Source of the DNA: Streptococcus sp. X13SY08
GTDB lineage: Bacteria; Bacillota; Bacilli; Lactobacillales; Streptococcaceae
NCBI RefSeq assembly: GCF_001182825.2
Contig: NZ_LFYO02000003.1
Span: 62,001 to 126,000, forward strand
Direction of reading: 5' to 3'
DNA: 64,000 nucleotides
The translations under genes and the position numbers were made by a program. Position 1 is the first letter of the stretch; the number at the start of each line of letters is the position of its first letter. Of this stretch, positions 12,961-60,244 are shown piece by piece. The notes under the pieces were generated by a model that worked only from the letters and a program-made list of their open reading frames with translations, made no database searches and was not told the DNA's origin.

Positions 12961-14818
12961 ATGTCAAATCTTTCAGTAAATGCCATTCGCTTTTTAGGCA
13001 TTGATGCTATTGAAAAAGCAAATTCAGGACACCCGGGAGCAGTGATGGGACAAGCTCCAATGGCTTACAGCCTTTTTACAAATCATATGCGAGTTAACCC
13101 TGCACAACCAAATTGGATCAACCGTGACCGTTTTGTACTATCTGCAGGCCATGGATCTATGTTGCTCTACGCTTTATTGCATTTAACGGGCTATGAGGAT
13201 GTTACTCTTGATGAGTTGAAAAATTTCCGTCAATGGAATTCTAAAACACCCGGGCACCCAGAAGTAGGGCATACAGCTGGTATTGATGCTACAACGGGTC
13301 CTCTTGGACAAGGGATTTCAACTGCGGTTGGTTTTGCGCAAGCAGAACGCTTCCTTGCAGCTAAATATAATAAAGAGGGTTACAATCTTTTTGACCACTA
13401 TACTTAACTTGGATGGACCAACTTCCGAGAGTATTACAGAAAATGTTCGTGCTCGTTACGAAGCTTACAACTGGCACACAGATTTGGTAGAAGATGGTAC
13501 AGATGTTGATGCGATTAACCAAGCTATTGAGGCGGCTAAAGCGTCTGGTAAACCATCCTTGATTGAAATCAAGACCATTATCGGTCATGGTTCGCCAGCT
13601 AAAGCGGGTTCTAACTCTTCACATGGTGCTCCTCTTGGTGCAGACGAAGTCGTTGCTACTCGTGAAAATCTTGGTTGGGAATATGCACCATTTGAAGTTC
13701 CAGCAAAAGTATATGCAGATTTCAAAGAACATGTAGCAGATCGTGGTGTCGCAAGTTATGATGCTTGGCTTCAATTGGTAGAAGACTACAAAGCTGCCTA
13801 TCCAGAATTAGCTGAGGAAGTATCTGCTATCTTGGCTGGTAAAGATCCCGTTGTCATCAAACCAGAAGATTTCCCAGCTATTGAAAATGGCTTTTCACAA
13901 GCGACTCGTAATTCTTCACAAGATGCCTTGAACGTAGCTGCTGAAATCATGCCAAACTTCCTTGGTGGATCTGCAGACTTGTCACATTCAAATATGACTT
14001 TCATCAAAGGGGAAGGTTTGCAAGACTCTGAACATCCACTTGAACGTAATATTCAATTTGGTGTTCGTGAATTTGCCATGGCAACTATCTTGAATGGTAT
14101 GGCTCTTCATGGTGGTTTGCGTGTATATGGTGGTACATTCTTAGTCTTCTCAGACTATGCAAAAGCAGCCATGCGTCTTTCTGCAATTCAAGGATTACCT
14201 GTGACCTATGTCTACACACATGATTCAATCGCAGTTGGTGAAGATGGTCCAACACATGAGCCAATCGAACATTTGGCAGGACTTCGTGCGATGCCAAACC
14301 TCAACGTTATTCGCCCAGCTGATGCGCGTGAAACACAAGCTGCTTGGTATTTGGCGCTTACAAGTGAATCTACCCCAACAGCTTTGATCTTGACTCGTCA
14401 AAACTTGACGGTTGAAGAAGGTACTGATTTTGCTAAAGTAGCTAAAGGTGCTTACGTAGTTTATGAAGCAGAAGGGTTTGATACCATTCTCTTGGCATCT
14501 GGTTCAGAAGTGAACTTGGCAGTCAAAGCTGCAAAAGAATTAGAAGAGTCTGGTACAAAAGTACGTGTGGTTTCTGTTCCATCAACAGATATTTTTGATG
14601 CACAAGATGCTGCCTACAAAGAAGAAATTCTCCCAGCCAATATTCGCCGTCGTGTTGCAATCGAAATGGCAGCGACACAAAGCTGGTATAAGTATGTTGG
14701 TTTAGATGGTCAAGTGATCGGTGTTGACCGCTTTGGTGCTTCAGCTCCAGCGCAAACGGTCATTGACAATTATGGCTTCACTGTTGAAAATGTCGTTTCA
14801 GTAGTCAATAGCTTATAA
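12961..14818 (+). pseudogene. tkt: Transketolase with an internal deletion that removes the TPP motif
   Basis: Transketolase transfers two-carbon ketol units in the pentose phosphate pathway and needs thiamine diphosphate. The N-terminal part is normal ([15 protein letters not shown], then [16 protein letters not shown]) up to YNLFDHYT near 13406. There the sequence jumps, with a frame change, to [22 protein letters not shown] and continues normally to the end. The missing ~40 residues are exactly those that carry the GDG...N cofactor-binding motif in this family. The span of 619 codons compares with about 658 in streptococcal enzymes. AGGAGG lies before the ATG. As written the enzyme cannot work. 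Another transketolase elsewhere, or an assembly error, would explain viability. Confidence 0.85.
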
Positions 14819-29934: not shown

Positions 29935-30516
29935 ATGAAGTTATTAGAAGAACGCATTTTAAAAGATGGAGATATTCTAGGAGAAAAAATTTTAAAAGTA
30001 GACTCCTTTCTCACCCACCAAGTGGATCATAAATTGATGAAGGAAATGGGAAAAGTCTTTGCGGAGACCTATCGCGATGCAGGGATTACTAAGGTAGTCA
30101 CTATTGAGGCATCAGGAATTGCACCAGCAGCTTCTATGGCAGAAGCATTGGATGTACCAATGATTTTTGCGAAAAAGCATAAGAACATTACGATGACAGA
30201 GGGGATTTTGACCGCGGAGGTTTATTCTTTCACTAAGCAGGTTACTTCCACTGTGTCTATTGCTGGAAAATTCCTTAGTTCTGAGGACAAAGTCTTGGTT
30301 ATCGACGACTTTTTGGCCAATGGTCAAGCGGCAAAGGGATTGCTTGACATCATCTCACAAGCAGGAGCTAAAGTGGTTGGTGTTGGTATTGTTATCGAGA
30401 AATCTTTCCAAGATGGACGTAAACTGTTAGAAGAAACCGGCGTCCAAGTGACATCACTTGCACGAATTAAAAACTTTGATCAAGGACAACTACATTTTAT
30501 GGAGGCAGACGCTTGA
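29935..30516 (+). CDS. xpt: Xanthine phosphoribosyltransferase
   Basis: Xpt salvages xanthine to XMP using PRPP. The PRPP-binding loop [17 protein letters not shown] is near residue 125, and [20 protein letters not shown] is also characteristic. The 193-residue length is normal. AAGGAGAACAC precedes the ATG. It overlaps pbuX by one base (TGATG), forming the riboswitch-controlled xpt-pbuX operon. Confidence 0.95.
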
Positions 30517-31720
30517 TGCAACATCAAGAACATTCTCACTCACAATCAGCTATTCTAGGTTTACAACACTTGCTCTCAATGTATGCAGGATCTATCTTAG
30601 TGCCAATCATGATTGCCTCTGTTTTGGGCTATTCAGCAACACAATTGACCTACTTGATCTCGTTGGTTTACCAGTTGTTTTGGGCTGTGCTTTCCAATCG
30701 GTTGCGCCACTTTCAATCATTGGTGCGCAACAAGGATCTGGTGCCATGTTTGGTGCCTTGATTGCGTCGGGAATCTACGTCATTTTAGTGGCAGGTATCT
30801 TCTCAAAAATTGCGGGTCTCTTCCCACCAATCGTAACTGGTGCGGTTATCACAACCATCGGTTTGACCTTGATTCCCGTTGCTATGGGTAATATGGGGAA
30901 TAACACCGCTGAGCCAACCCTGCAAAGTTTGATTTTGGCGCTCATCACGATTTTGATTATCCTCTTGGTTCATATGTTTGCCAAAGGGTTTGTTAAATCT
31001 ATTTCAATCCTTATTGGTCTTGTCGCAGGGACTCTTATCGCCGCTTTTATGGGTTTGGTGGATACATCGGTAGTAGCGGATGCACCATGGGTTCACGTAC
31101 CAACGCCATTCTACTTTGGGGCTCCGACTTTTGAATTCACATCTATCCTCATGATGTGTATCATTGCAACGGTTTCTATGGTTGAGTCAACGGGTGTATA
31201 CTTGGCCTTGTCAGATTTGACAGATGACAAGCTGACAGAACAGCGTTTGCGCAATGGTTACCGTTCAGAAGGGATTGCGGTGCTTTTAGGCGGAATTTTC
31301 AACACCTTCCCTTATACAGGATTTTCACAAAATGTCGGTCTGGTCTGCTTGTCTGGTATCAAGACCCGTCGTCCTATCTACTACACAGCAGGATTCTTGG
31401 TCGTTATTGGTCTCTTGCCTAAATTTGGTGCCCTAGCACAAATGATTCCAAGTCCTGTTTTGGGTGGTGCCATGCTGGTTCTTTTTGGAATGGTGGCGCT
31501 ACAGGGAATGCAGATGCTCAATCGTGTGGACTTTGCTGGGAATGAGCACAATTTCATCATCGCAGCAGTTGCCATTGCAGCCGGTGTCGGCTTTAATGGT
31601 ACCAATCTATTTGTTAGTCTACCGACTACGGTCCAAATGTTCTTGACCAATGGAATTGTGATCGCGACGGTCGTTGCCGTTGTACTCAATCTCATCTTGA
31701 ATAGTCGAGATAAGGGATAA
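30516..31720 (+). pseudogene. pbuX: Xanthine permease with a small internal deletion
   Basis: This NCS2-family purine/H+ symporter imports xanthine for Xpt. The N-terminal part (HLLSMYAGSILVPIMIASVL) is normal up to LTYLIS near 30660. The frame then shifts and resumes as GLPVVLGCAFQSVAPLSIIG, so about 20 residues of a helix (usually TDIF...GV) are missing. After that the frame is open to the end, with the NCS2 signature QNVGLVCLSGIKTRRP. The start at 30516 has GGAGG ten bases upstream inside xpt. As written it would yield an 80-residue fragment. Confidence 0.85.
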
Positions 31721-33567: not shown

Positions 33568-34148
33568 TTGAAAGGATATAGGAATTTAATCATTTTAGTC
33601 GTCGCCCTCATTGCGATTGTAGCCGGGACAGGATATATTTTTTATTCTAGTCATCAAGCTGCAGAAAAAGCGAGTCAGAAAACTACTTCAACTGCTTCTT
33701 CAGAGACAGAAGAATCTCTCCCAGCTGTGATGGGATTGCTTAACAAGAACTTACCAGAGTTCGATGTGACGGATATAAAAGGTCAATCTGTTTCATCCAC
33801 TCAATTTGCCAACAAACCAACTCTGATTGTGGAGTGGGGGAGTTGGTGCCCTCGTTACCAACAAATGCTACCTATCATAGAGGAAATGTATAAGAAGCAT
33901 GGTAATGAAATTGAGTTCGTTCTCATCAATGCGACAGATAATGACCGAGAGACCAAAGAGTCTGCTCAAAAATATGTTAAAGAAGAGGGATACACTTTCC
34001 CTTATTATTTCGATAATGAATTGAGTGCCGCAGCTAAACTACAAGTAGAAGCCGTTCCTTTGTAGATGCAAATGGTACGATTCAGAACATCGAAGTGTCG
34101 GAAGTAGCTAAAGAAGATGTTGAAAAAATGCTTCTCGAGTTACTGTAA
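33568..34148 (+). pseudogene. Membrane-anchored thioredoxin-like protein with a C-terminal frameshift
   Basis: The product has an N-terminal membrane anchor (NLIILVVALIAIVAGTGYIF), a Ser/Thr linker and a TlpA/redoxin domain. In place of the usual CxxC the active-site region reads WGSWCPRYQQM, with a single cysteine. Near 34063 the frame ends prematurely at VEAVPL. In the next frame FVDANGTIQNIEVSEVAKED runs to a stop at 34148. Related proteins read VPTVFFVDANG, so about eight bases are missing there. The TTG at 33568 follows AAAGGA at 9 nt. Such proteins act as thiol-disulfide reductases outside the membrane. This copy may be inactive on two counts. Confidence 0.75.
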
Positions 34149-34192
34149 CAATTAGAGATAATAAAGAAAAAGAATATTCAAAGGAGATCCTT

Positions 34193-35207
34193 ATGGACAA
34201 ATGTTTGCAGAAAGTCGCCGTAGCATCAGTTATCACTCTGTTTTCTACCACTGTTCTATCCTCATTTAATGCTTATCAAGATAATTCCTTGTTATTTGGA
34301 CTTACCATTTATGCTCAAGATCCTCCAGCTGACGAAGATGTTCCAGACGCAAATGAATGGTCTCTCATCAATAATTCCCGAGCACTTTATGCGGAAGCTT
34401 TGGAAATTGTTCAAGATCCAGCATACACCGAAGCTGATAAACCCTATGCTTTACAGCCCCTTGACGAGATTAATTTAGTTGGATTAAAGGCAATCAATAA
34501 AACTCAATCTAGGGAATTGGTCGCTCAAATCGAAGCCTTGTATGCTCAAATAAATAGGATGAGTTCAATGCCTCAACCAGCACCTATTGTGACTGAGGAA
34601 AAGGAAAATGTTCCAGTAGCAACTGCCTACATTGCAGACCCTGAAGTTAAAGCCAATACGCAGACAGTTCTCAACGAAGGAACACCCGGAGAAATCACGT
34701 ATACGGTAACAAATGGTGTCCGCGATCAAGGCACTGAAACAATACCGATGATCCCTAAACGTGTCTCAGTGGGAACAAAAACAGAAGTTGTGACCGAAGC
34801 AATTCCAGCACCCGCAGCTGTCGAAGAATTGGATGCAAATCTTGAAGAAGGCAAACGCGAGTTGAAAACTCCTGCAGTACTTGGTTCAAAAACCACGACC
34901 ACAACCTACACATTGGACAATCGCAACAGGCATTGCCAATGCTAACGAACCAATGGTTGTAGAAACAGCTGGTACCCCAGCGGTTTACCGTGTTGGGTCC
35001 AAGAAGACGGTTCAACCACAACAATCAGTACTTGAGGAGCAGCAAACAGCTAAGTCGGGTGATAAGGTACAAGAATGTTCGACAATGAAAGAGAACAAGA
35101 ATGTCTTACCAAAAACTGGAGAACAAATGTCAATTTTTACAGTGTTTGGTGCTGTCCTTCTAGCAGGTGTGGCTGGAATACTCACGTTCCGTAGGAAAAA
35201 AGAATAA
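34193..35207 (+). pseudogene. LPxTG surface protein with a G5 domain, frameshifted
   Basis: A signal peptide (VAVASVITLFSTTVLSSFNA) leads to an ~85-residue helical region. A G5-type domain follows (TPGEITYTVTNGVRDQGTET...TKTEVVTEAIPAP), of the kind found in streptococcal surface proteins that bind sugars or zinc. At about 34918 the frame is lost (TLDNRNR). The next frame resumes ATGIANANEPMVVETAGTPA and ends in the sortase signal LPKTGEQ, a hydrophobic helix and RRKKE. Restored, the protein has about 338 residues and is covalently anchored to peptidoglycan. AAGGAGAT precedes the ATG. The very large adhesin gene follows at once. Confidence 0.8.
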
Positions 35208-35265
35208 AATATTTTAGAGAAAAACATGCAATCAAAAACAGAGAGGCAAAGCTCGAAAGGTTTAC

Positions 35266-38200
35266 TTGGTCATTATTCAGGACGCCAGTGGTTCTTTTGA
35301 AAAAACTATGCCGAATATTAAAGAGGCATTGAAGAAGGTTACAGAAACAACTAGTGCTAAAGCTTATGATGAAAATAATCCGAAGTTAGTTTTTACAAAT
35401 GATCCTAAGACTACTGACCGTGTCATGATTACCTCCTATGCGGGTATCGATGCGGAGCGTCTATATGACGATGCGGACATTCTTTCTCGAGCTAGTCGCT
35501 TTGTTCCTGATCGTAATTCTCCTTGGGCATATGTTGACATGGATACTATTGCTGTTGGTGATTCTTACACGTATAATGATCCAGAACGCGGTCAAGTAAC
35601 GGATTTCTATCAACCAGAGGAACCAATTTTTAGCTACTACACTCGTACATTTCTTCGTTATGCGGGCAGCACCTCAATGAATATCAAAGGTATGTTTGCT
35701 AAAGGATATTACGATTTTACCAACGCTTCTTTGGAGATAACCGGGACAGATAGTAACTTTAAAACACTACGAGAAACACAGGAACAGTCCAGTGGTCGCT
35801 ATCGTTTTGAATCGAATGGCAATTTGATGTCTTCTACTGATGCTATTAATGCTGAAATTACCAAGATATCAACCGGTGGCGGGACACCGACTGTACCCGC
35901 TATTGACGATGCCATCAAGCAATACGAAGCCATCAAGAATAATGATGGGGGTATGGCAAATAACCGTAAGACTGTTTTCCTTTTGATTACTGACGGAGTG
36001 GCTAACGGATATCGCGACCCAAATAATCCAAGTGACTCAACAGTCTATTTTGACCGAAGTTTCTATCGTACCTATAGTTTGATGAAAGACTGGGGGACAA
36101 ATGGACGTTGGCCAGAAGCAGCGCAAAACTACCTTGCACGTGCAAATGAATTGGCAGATGCAGGAAATAAGTTAAAGGCCGCAGCAGGGGCCAATGGTAA
36201 AGTTGCAGTTGGTTTCTGGGAAGACAAACAGACACTTGAAGCCTTCGACACGCGATATGGCTATATGTACGCCTATGAAAATGCTTTTGGTGATCCGGAT
36301 AGTCGTACGACTATCAAAACTGGTGATCCCCGTTCCGTACGTGAAGTCTTTTCAACGGCTCTGCAATCAGTCGCTTCAGGTGCTGAAACGCTCCCGAATG
36401 GGAAGGACGCGAATTACTACGTTCAGGAATCGGACATTAACGCTTTTGCGGCTAATATCTTACAGTCCCTGACATCCGCCATTACAAAACAAGATGTATT
36501 GGGTAACTTTACCATCACAGATGGTTATAAGGTCAAATCAGTGAGCATCAATGGTAAAAAGATTGTTGACAAGGTAACGAACGAAGCTACGGAAATTCGT
36601 GGGACCGTTACACAGGAAGGAACGAAAGTCACCATCTCTGTGCCAGACACTGTCTTTAAATCTGGAGACAATAAGTTCGATTACGAATTGGAATACAGTG
36701 AAGCATCGCAACAAGCCGACGTAGCTAACGAAATTGAAGTCCCGGCAAACTATGTTCCACAGAAGAAAAACTACACCATTGGTAAGTTAGTAGGTACATT
36801 CCAAGTTAGGACATATACAACTGCTGAAATCGGGAAAAGTGCAGCCTCAACTATTTCTGTAGAAGATTTGCAATATTGTTATCCACGCGCTACCAAAGAT
36901 GTTAAAGATAAAGATATCTCAAACGATACAAATGGTGATGATGGCAAGACTGGTACCATCGCTGAAGATCCATTGTTGAAATCTGCAGATCCAAGTATTA
37001 GTCGTCCGACCTATGCAGCAACACTTTCTGATCAAGGTGAAGCATTTACTTATAAAGTACGCTACAACATGTATAATGGTGCGCTTGCAATGAACAACAA
37101 TGTTATGTTCGTAGATGCATTGAATTATCATGTGGACTATGTGGATGCACACGTTGAGGGTGAAAGTGGTAAAACCCTGCCTGACTTTAAAGTTTCGACG
37201 AAGCAAAGTACAGATGCTGCTGGCAAACCAATCACCATTGTTTATGCGACAGTCCCTCCATTAAAAGGTCCGAATGAGTCGGATACTGTTACCGAAGGAA
37301 ACTATGGTGGTCACAAATTTAAGGTCTATAACCTTGTTATCAATGCTAAAATCAAAGATCAATATTCATTCGAGAATAACCCTGATGAATACAAAAAGAT
37401 GATGACAGACAATGGTGGTCTCGGTTTCTTGAGCCAAGCGAAAATCATTTGGGATGGTGCCACGGCAGATCCTGAGGACACTACAGCAAAATTACGTCGA
37501 TCAAATGCGGTTTACGTCGTTCCACCAGTGAAGACAGATATTAGTAAAAAAGTAACTCAAGACTTAAATGTAGCAGGTACAGACCACCTTGAGTTGCCAA
37601 CTCGCTTGGATGCTTACTATTACCAACTCAATTCCACATGGTCTGGTCTTTTCGATCGCTGCTTGATTGAAGATACTCTGGTACCAGAATTGATGTCCCT
37701 TCATGATGAAAAAAGTGAAGACAAAGTATTGATTAACGGCAAAGAAGCTACTACCTTGGCAAAGTACTTGAAGGAAGAGGTCGTTCAAGTTAACGGTGTT
37801 TCACGAGATCGTGTCTATTTTGAGTTAGATGCGTCGAAATTGAGTCGATTAGAGCTTCGTCAAATTAATACTGAAATTGAGGCGTTGAACAAAGGCAACA
37901 ATGGTCCTGCGATTATCACATTAGGGATTCAAGCGCGTGTCCGTGACAATGCTGTTCTTGCAAAGTATGCGGATGCAAATGGTAAAATTAAAATACCAAA
38001 TACTGCCAATGTCACTTTAAACAATAATTCGCAAACTTCAAATAAAGTAACAGTTAGTCCAAACTCTCCAGCAGCCATCAAATTAATCAATGGAGATGAT
38101 ACTCACATCTTTTCAACTGTTGATGGAAATGAGGCAGGTGTGCCATTCAACTATGATGTGCAAGCCACTCTTCCAAACGTGGCAACGAAGACGGGCATCA

Positions 38201-41200
38201 AGCCAAATGGGGAGTCACATGTCATTACTACTCCACCAGTAACTGTAACACCTCCACAAGAGGATCCTACAGTTGAGAAAATGATTGAGACTCCTGATAC
38301 AAAAGAACTTGTAACAGATTTGGATATCGAAAACGAAAAAGTTTACAACTATATCGTTACGTCACAATTGCCAGCAGACATCCAAGATTTCAAGAAATTT
38401 GTTATCAAGGATACATTGGATGATCGATTGACAGCTCTCAATACAGCTGATAACAAACCATTCATTGAAGGTGACGCCGCTAAATTCTTCGATGTAAAAG
38501 TGGATGGACAAACGGTTACTGCAACAATGAAAGAGTTCATAACAGCTACAGATTCAGCTGGCAAAGAAATTAAGTTAGTTATTCCAGCTCAAATCAACAA
38601 AGGTGTGAAGACTCCTCAGATTCCAAATACAGCTTCTATCGACTTCACAAATGCTGTTAATAAACAGGGGAATAGGAAAACGGAACCGGTCACAGTATCT
38701 CCTCCAGGTGAAACTCCAACGGTTGAGAAGAAGATTAATGGTACATTGACGGACGCCCTTGTATTACCAGAGTCTAACTACACTTACAATATCAAGGCAC
38801 TCCTTCCAATGGACATCACAAGCTACAAAGCTTACACGATTGTCGACGAAGTGAATGAGAACTTGGCAAGTAAGATAGTAGAACTCGTGATCACAGCGCA
38901 GGTGAAAGCAACAAGCACAGAAGCGAAGATTGAAAACACTGCGAAAGTCACTTACCAAAATAAATCACATGTTGATGGAACTCCAGATAGCGAGACCCCA
39001 CCAACACCGCCAGTAACGGGACAGACTACAAGTACAACATTAAGACAACCCTTCCAACCGATATCGCCACTTACAAGACATTTGTGATTAAGGATACGCT
39101 TGAGAAAGAATTGGAAGTACAAGGCCCCCAACGATTACAGGGGACGCGGCTAAGTTCTTCAAGGTTGAAGTGAGCGGTCAAACTGTTACGGCCACCATTA
39201 CAGACTTCGATGCAGCGAAAGCTTATGCAGGTAAAGAAGTAGAGCTTGTGATTGTCTCACAAATCCGTAAAGGTGTGACTCGTCAAGCGATTCCAAATAC
39301 AACTAAAGTGACTTACCAAAATAAATCACACGTAGATGGAACGCCAGATAGCGAAACACCACCTACACCACCAGTAACGGTAACGCCTCCGGGTGAAACA
39401 CCGACTGTTGAAAAGAAGATTAACAATACGCTTGATCACTTGGATATCACCAGTTATTTCTGGTGACGCCGCGAAATTCTTTGATGTAACAGTTGATGGA
39501 CAAACCGTAACACCGCCTACACCAAATACTCCTCCACTTGAGAAGAAAGTAAATGGTGCAGAAAGTGCGAAACTATCAGCCCGCCAAGAAGTATTTACAT
39601 ACACAATCGCCACAACTGTTCCAACTGGCGCATTTGCATTCGAAATCAGCGATACACTCAAAGATGCCTTGACATTTGAAGGTGATATCACTGCAACCTT
39701 GGCTGGTAAAGCAATCTCTTCAAATCAAATTTCTATCTCTGGACAAACTGTTACAGTTAAATTGACTAAAGATCAAGTTCGTAAAGAAGCTGGTAAACCA
39801 GTTCATGTTGAATTCTCTGCTAAGGTCAAAGATGGTGCTGATTTGACACCATACATGACAAATGGTGTGACAAGCATTCCAAATACTGCAAGCTACATCG
39901 TCAATAACAACCCGGCAACTAAGAAGGATTCAAACACTGTTCCGGTATTACCACCAACTCCTAACGAACCAGAAATTGATAAGAAAATCAATCATACTCT
40001 TGAACATCTTGACATCGAAACAAATCAATCCTACATGTATAATGTCACTGCGGATCTTCCACAAGACATTGCAACATACCGTGAATTTGTCGTGACAGAT
40101 ACGCTTGAATCTGTCCTTGCAATCAATGGTGATGTGGTAGCCTATGTAGATGGATACACAACAGATGCTGTGAAAGTAACTGTAGAAGGCAATAAAGTGA
40201 CTGCAAGTGTCGTAGACTTTGCAAAACTTGCTGGCTTCAAACAAATCCAACTTTACATTCCTGCCAAATTAGCCTCTTAGCTCTTCTTAAAGCTACAGAA
40301 GCCTTCCGCTTTGACATCAAGTCAGTCGTTCCAATGGACGAAGCTGATGACAAACGTCAAAACCTTACAAGCATCACGATTACGGATAACTTGGACAATC
40401 TCTTCGCTGTGAAGAAGGACCAAGTAGCTGTGAAGGTTATAGATGCTCCTCAGGAAAATGCGAACTTTATCGATGAAGATGTTGAAAAATCGCAAGCTGC
40501 CCTTGATGATGAAAAAGCTAAATTGGAAGAAATCAAGCAATCTGGTCAAACAGAAGCAGCCACAGCTGCTCTTGCGAAAGCTCAAGCGACAGTCGCTGCA
40601 CTTGAAACACAGTTGGCAGAAGCACAAGCTAAATTGACTGAGCTTAAAGCTATGAAATCAACAGAAGCATCTACTACAGAGCAACCTGCGACAGATACAG
40701 CATCCTCTACTGATACTTCAGTAGCTGGAACGACAATTGATAATTCAGTTGAAATTGCTGCGCAAGAAGCCTTAATAGCAGATGTACAAGCTAAATTGGA
40801 AGCTGCGAAAGTAGAAGTACAAAAAGCTCAAGAAGCTTTAGCACAAGCGAAGACTGCTGAAGTACAAGAACGCATGGCACAATTGGCTAAGGTAAATGCT
40901 AAAGGTGGATTGACGGCTGAAGCAATTGCTGCTTTGGGCGGAACAATTAAAGTAGAAGGACAACTTGTAACGGTTGAATTCACAGATGAGGACACAATGG
41001 AAGCCCTTAGAGGCTACACTGTAAACGTGATAATCTACTCAAGTATCACAGATGTGAAAGCTTTGACAGATGATCATTTCACCAAGGGAATCGATAATAC
41101 TGCAACAGTACAATTCAATCATGATCCAAATGCCAACCTCATTAAGAAGACTAACAAAGTAACGGTTGTACCTCCTAAGGAGCAAACACTTCCACCGACA

Positions 41201-41389
41201 CCTCCAAAACCTGAAGAGCCAAAAGGTGATTTACCAACACCGCCTAAGAAGCTAGCTCCGACACCAAAACCAGCTACACCAATCTTGCCTAAGACAGGAT
41301 CTGTTGAAACTGGCTTCTGGAGCCTTCTTGGTCTCGGCCTAGCAGCTCTTGGAATCTTTGCTCTTAGTAAAAAGAAAAAAGATGTCTAG
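35266..41389 (+). pseudogene. Very large LPxTG adhesin: vWA, isopeptide-type repeats, coiled coil; broken in several places
   Basis: Readable blocks are 35266-39087, 39170-39466, 39393-40280 and 40334-41389. The first starts inside a von Willebrand A domain whose MIDAS residues are clear (DASGS, TGGGTPT, LLITDG). No signal peptide precedes it, so the true N-terminus is missing. Several ~120-residue beta-sandwich repeats follow (VTPP-x-E-x-PTVEKxI ... DTL ... GDAAKFF-V-VDGQTVTATM ... IPNTA), resembling isopeptide-forming fimbrial D2 domains. Frames change at about 39020, 39125, 39455 and 40275. A ~170-residue coiled coil (DDEKAKLEEIKQSG...) interrupts the last repeat, and the end is LPKTGSVETGFWS, a helix and KKKKDV. 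Intact, it would be a long sortase-anchored adhesin. Repeat collapse during assembly could explain part of the damage. Confidence 0.75.
38943..39382 (+). repeat. Near-identical direct repeats inside the adhesin gene
   Basis: About 75 bases starting near 38943 recur near 39304 with only a few silent changes (both encode KVTYQNKSHVDGTPDSETPP). The offset is 361 bases, which is not a multiple of three and accounts for the frame change between the copies. Such repeats favour recombination in the cell and collapse in short-read assembly. Confidence 0.8.
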
Positions 41390-41433: not shown

Positions 41434-41543
41434 GTGTTAAAATGCGCAGATAAGTCCCTCAAGTGCCTAGTTTTTCGGGTTTTTTGAAAAATGATGGTTA
41501 AATATGATATAATAAAGATAATTTTGAAAGATGGAGTTGTATT

Positions 41544-41848
41544 TTGAAGAAAAGCTATCGTGTCAAGCGAAAACGCGATTTTAACGATCTATTTACACAG
41601 GGAAAAAATGTGGCAAATCGGAAGTTTGTGGTCTACCGTTTGCCTAAGGAGCAAGAGCATTTTCGATTCGCCATGTCCTGATGGAATTTTCTCCGAATCT
41701 GACAACAGATGATTTTGTGGTCATCGCCCGAAAAGGTGTGGAAAATTTGTCCTACCAAGAAGTCCGCGATAATCTTCGCCATGTTTTAAAATTAGCAACT
41801 ATTTACCAGAAAGGTGAAACTCTTGAAACAGAAACTAAAATGGGCTAG
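41544..41848 (+). pseudogene. rnpA: RNase P protein component missing its central RNR region
   Basis: RnpA is the protein partner of RNase P RNA in tRNA 5' maturation. The TTG start has GGAG about seven bases upstream and reads MKKSYRVKRKRDFNDLFTQG, normal through [15 protein letters not shown]. The frame then ends. The rest of the protein, [20 protein letters not shown] onward, continues in another frame to a stop at 41848. The ~20 residues normally between them (VSKK-GNAV-RN-IKR) contain the conserved basic RNA-binding helix. RnpA is essential in most bacteria, so a real lesion of this kind would be surprising. The gene's end overlaps yidC by 26 bases. Confidence 0.85.
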
Positions 41849-58115: not shown

Positions 58116-60244
58116 ATGACTTATGAATTTGAACCAGATCATCTAGAAGATGAGATGGATTATCAAGAAGAATATAGCCGCAGCCGGCGTGCCCGTGGCG
58201 GTGGCGAAAAGAAAATAAAAACACCTAAAAAATCTCGTATCCCAGAACCCATTCGTCGCTTTTGGCGCCGTTATCAATTGACCAAGATTCTTTTGATTTT
58301 GATTGGGGTGGTTGTTTTAGTCGTTGGTAGCTACCTTTTTTACCTCGCTAAAACTGCTAATGTTGGGGATCTGCAGGCTGCACTCAAGGCAACAACAGTA
58401 ATCTATGATAAGGATGGCGCCGAGGCAGGGACCCTATCTGGGCAAAAGGGGACCTATGTGGAGTTGGACGCTATTTCGGACAACTTGGAACAAGCTGTCA
58501 TTGCCACGGAAGACAGAACTTTCTACGAAAATTCAGGTATTAACTACAAACGGACCTTCTTAGCGCTTTTAACTTTGGGTCGTTCAGGTGGTGGATCAAC
58601 CATTACTCAGCAGTTGGCTAAGAATGCTTTTTTAACGCAGGATCAGACCATCAGTCGGAAAGCACGAGAATATTTTCTAGCACTCGAAATCAATAAAAAA
58701 TATAGTAAAGATGAAATTCTAACCATGTACCTTAACAATGCCTATTTTGGCAATGGTGTTTGGGGCGTACAAGATGCTAGCCAAAAATATTTTGGTATCA
58801 ATGCATCTGATTTATCAGTAGAACAGTCGGCACTGATTGCGGGTATGCTTAAGGGGCCTGAGATTTACAACCCTTATTATTCGATTGAAAATGCGACCAA
58901 TCGCCGCAATACAGTCTTGCAAGCTATGGTAGATGCAAAAACGATTGACCAAGCAACGGCTGATGCTGCCAGTCAAGTAGACATCGCAAGCCAACTTGCA
59001 GATACTTACGGAGGGAAGCAACAAAATTATAGCTACCCATCTTATTTTGACGCGGTGATTGCTGAGGCCATCGACCGCTATGGTCTCAAGGAAAGTGACA
59101 TTATCAATAATGGTTACCGTATTTACACGGAGATGGACCAAAATTCCCAGGCCAGCATGCAGGTGATTTACAACGACGAAACGATGTTCCCGATTTCTCC
59201 ATATGATGGTTCGTCTGCTCAGTCTGCCAGTGTCGTTCTTGATCCCAAGACAGGTGGTGTTCGTGCTCTAGTCGGACGTGTCAATAGTTCAGAAGATGCG
59301 GCTTTCCGGACCTTTAATTTTGCCACTCAATCAGAGCGCAGTCCAGGTTCTACTATTAAGCCCTTGGTAGCATATTCTCCAGCCCTTGCTGCAGGGTGGG
59401 AGATTGACCGGGAACTAGATAATCACACAGAAACCTATGGCAATTACACTCTACATAATTATGATTATTCGACTTCTGACACTATTCCTATGTATCAGGC
59501 TTTAGCGATGTCTTATAATCTTCCGGCGGCCTCTGTAGTTCATACCTTAGGTTGGGTGTTTCTATTGGAAGTGGAGTGTCGACGAATCCCCTTCAAATGG
59601 CTCAAGCCTACTCTACCTTTGCAAATGGTGGCGTCATGCAAGATGCTCACTTGATTAGCAAAATTGAAACGGCCAGTGGAAAAGCATTAGCTATCCATAC
59701 AACAAAATCAACACGCGTCGTCAATCAGTCAGTCGCGGATAAAATGACGTCCATGATGCTTGGTGCATTTACCAACGGAACGGGCGCAAATGCAGATGTT
59801 TACGGCTATGACATTGCCGGAAAAACAGGGACCACAGAAACAAGTTTTAATGCTGATTTTATCAATGATCAGTGGATCATTGGTTTTACACCAGATTTAG
59901 TAATGACACAGTGGGTAGGTTTTGAAAATACAGATGAATCGCATTATATTGATGAATCTAATTCATGGATGGCACCTGTTATTTTCCAGACAGTTGCAGG
60001 TTCTATTTTACCGAATACAGCTGGCACAGCTTTCCATGTCGAAAATGCCTATGTAGCAAATGGAATCATTACAACTCAAGAAGAAACAGGTCAACCAGAA
60101 GTAGCACCTGATCAGAATGATCTGAACGACTTAGCCAATAAAACTCAAGATTTAATTGATCAAACGAAACAACAAATTCAAGACGCAAAAATTCCGGAGC
60201 GAGCAAAAACACTGTGGGATAACATTCAATCCTTCTTTGAGTAG
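58116..60244 (+). pseudogene. pbp2A: Penicillin-binding protein 2A with an internal deletion
   Basis: This class A enzyme polymerises and cross-links peptidoglycan. It has a cytoplasmic basic tail, one transmembrane helix (ILLILIGVVVLVVGSYLF) and a GT51 domain (TEDRTFYENSGI, STITQQLAKN). The transpeptidase domain has SPGSTIKP (nucleophile), SYNLP and, in the second piece, GKTGTTE. The frame breaks near 59553-59560, jumping from VVHTLG to LGVSIGSGVSTNPLQMAQAY. About 20-25 residues are missing between the SxN and KTG motifs. It would total ~731 residues if whole. AAAGGAGTG precedes the ATG. As written only the glycosyltransferase and part of the transpeptidase would be made. Confidence 0.85.

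Follow-up and report, generated by a model that had tools for sequence, protein, structure and literature searches.

The wall-proximal isopeptide domain of a putative giant streptococcal adhesin is split by a helical insert, as read from profile matches and predicted structure, and this design is conserved in the relatives of the protein. The adhesin was found in pieces in a stretch of 64,000 nucleotides from Streptococcus sp. X13SY08 (contig NZ_LFYO02000003.1), which is referred to here as the window. It is highly probable, from sequence and modelling, that the family has a von Willebrand factor A (vWA) head, a stalk of D2-type isopeptide modules, a wall-proximal D2 domain bearing a helical hairpin, and an LPxTG anchor. 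Taken as a whole, the reading somewhat favored here is that of a single-chain fibrillar adhesin whose base domain carries a hairpin with a bracing role, and whose copy in the window was probably broken by error.

The adhesin gene in the window

The initial annotation described a giant adhesin as one protein at positions 35266-41389 of the forward strand, and overlooked that this copy is broken. Coding in the region is split over four frames with pieces missing, and there is no single open reading frame. Reading frames, profile matches and motifs place the vWA head, without its start, and the first D2 modules in one piece (35218-39084), and further coding pieces lie at 39104-39463, 38991-39170 (in a third frame), 39384-40277 and 40196-41386, all on the forward strand. 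The signal peptide is absent from the window adhesin; the upstream LPxTG gene extends to 35204 and the first head motif begins at 35281. The MIDAS motifs reported earlier are present in the head, namely DASGS (35281-35295), GGTPT (35878-35892) and LLITDG (35980-35997), and a conserved cysteine C-terminal to the head is found in the sequence YCYP (36874-36885).

D2 modules matched by profile span 37009-38706 (37009-37527, 37567-38061, 38059-38190, which is a part only, and 38251-38706) and are followed by cut and shortened modules, recognized by partial profile matches in three frames (38701-39512), and by two further modules (39516-40271), of which the first is full (39516-39956) and the second lacks its C-terminal part (39954-40271). 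Profile mapping finds modules that are truncated or partly absent at the joins, in some cases in-frame. The hairpin-bearing domain begins with an N-terminal part (40277-40447) from which the strand bearing the isopeptide lysine is missing and in which the aspartate lies within TITDNLD (40376-40396). The segment said to interrupt the last module was recovered as a helix-rich insert of 151 residues (40448-40900), which consists, partly by reference to the model of a relative, of a first arm (40457-40654), a linker (about 40658-40744) and a second arm (40745-40894) about 30 residues shorter than in most relatives. The C-terminal part of the domain (40901-41176) contains the isopeptide asparagine in GIDNTA (41087-41104), and an LPKTG sorting motif follows (41285-41299). 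As read, the window copy is unable to make this protein.

Three pieces of the window adhesin score 119.8, 33.6 and 154.8 bits with the NCBIfam model TIGR04226 (RrgB_K2N_iso_D2; cut-off 30 bits), and the repeated modules of the initial annotation are therefore of the D2 type, with a unit of approximately 145-150 residues by our own profile in place of the approximately 120 proposed. TIGR04226 gave no match to the hairpin-bearing last domain (40196-41386) at an E-value of 0.1; although that model does not report it, the last domain is built like a D2 module, in that its halves match our own D2 profile and its predicted fold agrees. Pfam VWA exceeds its cut-off only in the relative from S. gallinaceus 3635A (L032), and fails to reach it in that from S. 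suis HN129 (L031) and in the window. With respect to antigen I/II, the NCBIfam model Streccoc_I_II (cut-off 1500 bits) has no match in the adhesin pieces and reaches 11.8 bits in the anchor piece of the upstream gene, and Pfam AgI_II_C2 reaches 25.1 bits in the window, under its cut-off of 27.1.

The breaks in the window are probably errors of sequence or assembly, because rnpA and the genes of transketolase and PBP2A show cuts like those of the adhesin. rnpA (41508-41830, forward strand) matches its profile at positions 1-46 and then, in another frame, at 64-107, so that 17 positions (47-63) are missing. The transketolase gene (12961-14815) likewise occupies two frames, matching positions 3-145 and 173-651 with 27 positions missing between them, and that of PBP2A (58116-60241) matches 15-463 and 485-716 in two frames with 21 missing. 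The breaks are not universal, because gltX, jag and the xanthine phosphoribosyltransferase gene give near full-length profile matches. The model of xanthine permease (30458-31717) is matched only from position 58, and the start of this gene may also be missing. It is unlikely that the breaks are genuine and that the lineage is losing the adhesin together with its neighbors. Such decay would account for three neighboring genes that are all broken, including on the forward strand a ResA-like thioredoxin gene (33568-34145, in two frames at 33568-34062 and 34038-34145) and a gene of a G5-domain LPxTG protein (34124-35204, in two frames at 34124-34942 and 34866-35204; Pfam G5 and Gram_pos_anchor above cut-off), and also for the motif WCPRY (33844-33858) of the thioredoxin gene, in which the second cysteine of the relatives is absent. 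Against it stand the similar cuts in rnpA, transketolase and PBP2A and the lack of any rnpA at an E-value of 0.001 in the genome of the window itself, a threshold passed in 10 of 14 control genomes. A viable cell would not be expected to survive such a loss.

Relatives of the adhesin

When the C-terminal piece of the window adhesin was compared with 147 Streptococcus genomes, 60 gave matches at an E-value of 0.001 or less. Strong matches (best E-values of 6.7e-229 to 1.7e-17) were found in 17 of these, including the genome of the window, and the remaining 43 gave weak matches that are mostly restricted to the C-terminal part. Eighteen proteins from 17 genomes were analyzed as relatives (one genome, G007, contributes two); L034 duplicates L032, and the two count as one everywhere but in the survey of 19 loci described below; the alignment of the family (A3) holds 17 of the 18, L035 being omitted as near-identical to L031.

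Unlike the window copy, 14 of the 18 relatives have the head, stalk and LPxTG motif in one open frame of 2,757-4,385 residues, and these unbroken proteins support the earlier description of a vWA head on an isopeptide stalk. The other four are incomplete: L033 and L044 are in two frames, the head of L038 is on another contig, and L042 starts at a contig end. By profile count the stalks of the unbroken relatives comprise 12-23 D2-type modules, and the stretches over the TIGR04226 cut-off number 13 in L031 and 15 in L032. MIDAS motifs are present in all 16 complete heads. The head was found in 18 of the 147 genomes, and the hairpin domain is also present in 17 of these; in the eighteenth, G131, the frame runs off the contig end. 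Nine giant LPxTG proteins taken from the weakly matching genomes (L050-L058) were rejected as family members, with no D2 module below 1e-5 and no D.SGS motif; the hairpin was not seen in their last 420 residues. These nine represent a part of the 43 weakly matching genomes, which also include G061 (query residues 13-137).

A D2-type domain split by a helical insert

Sequence profiles and modelling indicate that the domain next to the wall is a single isopeptide domain of the D2 type into which a helical segment is inserted, and comparison with streptococcal LPxTG proteins showed that this design holds across species. The insert measures 151 residues in the window and 148-210 in the 18 relatives, and ordinary D2 modules lack an insert of this kind, their inserted residues totaling at most 44. 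The D2 profile was built from 242 rows of ordinary modules of the same proteins, after removal of the C-terminal 430 residues from every protein. The C-terminal half of the last domain matches this profile in all 18 relatives (37.8-62.4 bits), starting at position 65-74 and covering approximately positions 65-150, and the N-terminal half maps inside positions 1-68, again in 18 of 18. Among 900 shuffled sequences per half, the highest scores were 9.4 bits for the N-terminal and 9.8 bits for the C-terminal half; the N-terminal half lies above its maximum in 10 relatives and below it in eight (7.9-9.2 bits). Profile-profile comparison of the aligned halves with D2 gave E-values of 2.2e-8 (N-terminal) and 1.4e-18 (C-terminal).

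The structure of the hairpin domain of S. suis HN129 was predicted with AlphaFold2 from an alignment (A1) whose further rows were two orthologs and 23 ordinary modules (9 of 13 from L031, 12 of 14 from L032 and two from the window), and has a pLDDT of 86 and a pTM of 0.69. In this model two beta parts (residues 15-84 and 278-354) flank helical arms (91-264) composed of helices 91-118, 121-160, 183-217 and 221-264, and residues 161-182 are without regular structure, with 166-174 at a pLDDT of less than 50. The model superimposes on the pilin BcpA over residues 8-357, that is, across the insert (Z 16.5, 2.1 Å, 144 residues). Because the rows of ordinary modules favor the D2 fold, a control model was made with three orthologs only (pLDDT 70.7, pTM 0.51); its first 26 residues are unreliable, and it has strands, four long helices and strands in the same main order. 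Among the 50 PDB matches listed for the control model, 49 are limited to the helical part, including the antiparallel hairpin of AcrA (residues 119-218, 1.5 Å, 79 aligned), and the sole listed match that covers both flanks is Sgo0707 (31-356, Z 9.9, 3.0 Å, 123 aligned). Helical matches at such Z-scores may reflect a common arrangement only.

That the coiled coil is instead a separate linker joining two complete domains is extremely improbable. The weak score of the N-terminal half alone against the D2 profile in eight of the 18 relatives is the one observation found in its favor; this reading was rejected in view of the complementary profile positions of the two halves and of the one-domain model and its superposition on BcpA, both of which extend across the insert. 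The initial proposal that the coiled coil lies within the last module of the stalk agrees with the profile matches of both halves and with the structure predicted for the HN129 relative, which is one split domain.

The insert itself looks like an intramolecular antiparallel hairpin in the predictions. One chain folded back on itself is the simplest reading, because both models show two helical arms joined by a linker of low confidence and because antiparallel hairpins from other proteins are among the matches of the ortholog-only model. The insert had been called heptad-rich, and averaged over 17 sequences a period of 3.5 reaches significance in both base segments (p 0.0035 and 0.0015), whereas neither tip segment does so (p 0.29 and 0.16). 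The window sequence taken by itself gives no significant period either (p 0.42 and 0.15). Tests of single sequences were mixed, with significance in several more distant relatives but none in L031, L032 or the window. Of the lateral dimerizing arm suggested at the outset, the lateral arm agrees with the predicted geometry. Dimerization, in which the hairpins of adjacent chains would form a four-helix bundle and join fibers at their base, would suit the heptad periodicity of the base segments and the long arms present in all 18 relatives, but is improbable given that both models fold the arms together within one chain and that the insert is weakly conserved.

The isopeptide residues of the split domain

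The isopeptide lysine, aspartate and asparagine are retained in all 17 aligned relatives, and the insert occupies the loop between the strand bearing the aspartate and that bearing the asparagine. BcpA is the best PDB sequence match of the alignment profile (E 1.8e-34), and its lysine, aspartate and asparagine occupy the same alignment columns as those of the hairpin domain. The title of PDB entry 3rkp names the substitution D312A; a chain offset of 160 places residue 312 on the aligned aspartate and yields K273 and N383, which we take to be the partners of the BcpA isopeptide bond. From these residues and the predicted fold we infer that a Lys-Asn bond forms in the hairpin domain as in BcpA. 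Tension from the head would then be carried from the first strand to the penultimate one, so that the hairpin insert would be bypassed.

Possible role of the hairpin

The end of the hairpin domain is 25-51 residues from the LPxTG motif in 18 of 18 relatives, and the hairpin is therefore located at the base of the fiber. We know of no settled account of how isopeptide stalks of many modules are held upright and load-bearing at the wall. At approximately 5 nm per isopeptide module, the stalks would be roughly 60-115 nm long. Bracing of the fiber base is the most likely of the roles proposed for the hairpin, and is put forward tentatively. In this mechanism, a vWA head with MIDAS motifs would sit atop a D2-type isopeptide stalk anchored to the wall through LPxTG, and the D2 domain adjoining the wall would carry the antiparallel hairpin in the loop between its Asp and Asn strands. 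The hairpin would form a tension-shielded lateral arm whose 70 residues, at 1.5 Å each, extend over approximately 10 nm. Located in or at the outer wall, it would hold the base by wedging on the wall or by packing with neighboring surface chains, so that the very long stalk is kept upright and does not tilt or pull through.

Mean pairwise identity is 0.40 in the hairpin compared with 0.52 and 0.54 in its domain, and the insert is acidic, with a net charge of -6 to -19. An acidic and weakly conserved insert would be more in keeping with a mechanical function or with spacing than with a conserved binding site. The exposed arm, the variable linker at its tip and the net charge could still be those of a second binding site for a ligand from the host, from bacteria or from the wall polymer, but such a site is quite unlikely, as it would lie at the wall end, distant from the head, and the tip is no more conserved than the remainder (0.37-0.43 in tip and base). 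It is doubtful to a similar degree that the hairpin acts as a passive spacer, or that it helps a very long chain to fold or to be secreted. Its fast sequence change within a constant size class (148-210 residues) is what a spacer would be expected to show; the conserved insertion site and the presence of the hairpin in all 18 readable relatives, by contrast, suggest a use that depends on its position.

A conserved arm next to the anchor, past which force is possibly carried by a covalent bond, is a testable idea, and would also mean that isopeptide domains accept long helical inserts between the bond-forming residues.

Distribution and gene neighborhood

The hairpin domain is rare but portable, because few genomes match and because one protein that carries it has a different head. 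It was found in eight of 246 Lactobacillales genomes, two of which are from another family; in six of 398 Bacilli genomes, all of Streptococcus and including that of the window; and in two of the 76 genomes of that other family. One of the latter, G245, encodes a protein of 4,168 residues with the full architecture. G188 (L074:1274-17257) encodes an LPxTG protein of 5,328 residues in which the head is different and the stalk mostly different, and whose last domain is likewise of the hairpin-bearing kind. A literature search, mainly of open-licence papers, found no description of a helical insert of this kind, and no Pfam family is common to most hairpin domains, the commonest, YlqD, being matched in three of 17. 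The hairpin within D2 might be an undescribed portable base module for giant adhesins of Gram-positive bacteria, that is, an isopeptide-clamped and tension-shielded helical arm close to the wall that braces or organizes fibers and is traded among proteins with differing heads and stalks, a broader proposal that is rather doubtful at present.

A frame with a WCxxC motif lies near the adhesin in 10 of 19 loci (flank lengths vary, and L032 and L034 are one place), and a second LPxTG gene in 16 of 19 (L031-L049, L075 and the window neighborhood at 33568-35204; flanks vary). The neighborhood recurs at different chromosomal places, and the flanking genes, judged by eye, resemble rnpA, gapA/pgk or glnA. 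With respect to sortase-assembled pilus tips of the RrgA/PitA type, the TLxTC-type motif of pilus sortases is absent from the frames listed for the 19 loci, a comparison of motif only and over short flanks. All 16 complete heads have one cysteine before and one after the vWA domain, and in 15 of them these are the sole cysteines of the frame. A disulfide across the head, made with the neighboring thioredoxin, is a reasonable guess from these sequences.

L031 (698-9520) and L035 (2526-14828) are identical at 529 of 530 head residues and differ in length by 1,160 residues, which corresponds to four units of 870 bp; L031 has two copies of this unit and a part, and L035 six and a part, with self-matches over 1 kb at 92.9-97.8%. 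Near-identical tandem units whose number varies between close relatives, the criterion for periscope proteins, are present in these two proteins as read from their genes.

Comparison with known systems

The Bacillus cereus major pilin BcpA (PDB 3kpt and 3rkp; a single isopeptide domain) has the same fold as that predicted for the split domain. It differs from the window family in having no helical insert in the aligned stretch and in being a pilin subunit as opposed to one giant chain. The beta domain of Sgo0707 from Streptococcus gordonii (PDB 4igb) is also similar, with a Z-score of 15.1 for the HN129 model and 9.9 for the ortholog-only model, but its aligned stretch is without a long helical insert; Pfam Sgo0707_N2 is under its cut-off in the window pieces. 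The L031 and L035 pair resembles the periscope proteins, in which near-identical tandem stalk units vary in number, although a hairpin base is unmentioned in the available part of the source on these proteins (PMC9704523).

PrgB of Enterococcus faecalis (PDB 8beg), with which the HN129 model superimposes at a Z-score of 14.9, is likewise an LPxTG adhesin with Ig-like domains containing Lys-Asn/Asp isopeptides and a coiled-coil region. According to the available part of its description, that coiled coil (residues 198-257) is N-terminal to the polymer adhesin domain and outside the stalk domains, unlike the hairpin of the window family (PMC10588982). A survey from 2025, in the part available, reports a helical-hairpin fold whose isopeptide bond is intermolecular, and also that isopeptide folds accept domain insertions in their loops (PMC12617251). 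A parallel in that text is with RrgA and Spy0125, which have a large loop insert between the bond-forming residues, as in the hairpin domain. The inserts of this class are, however, usually isopeptide or adhesion domains (PMC12617251), whereas that of the window family is, as predicted, a helical hairpin at the wall end of the fiber.
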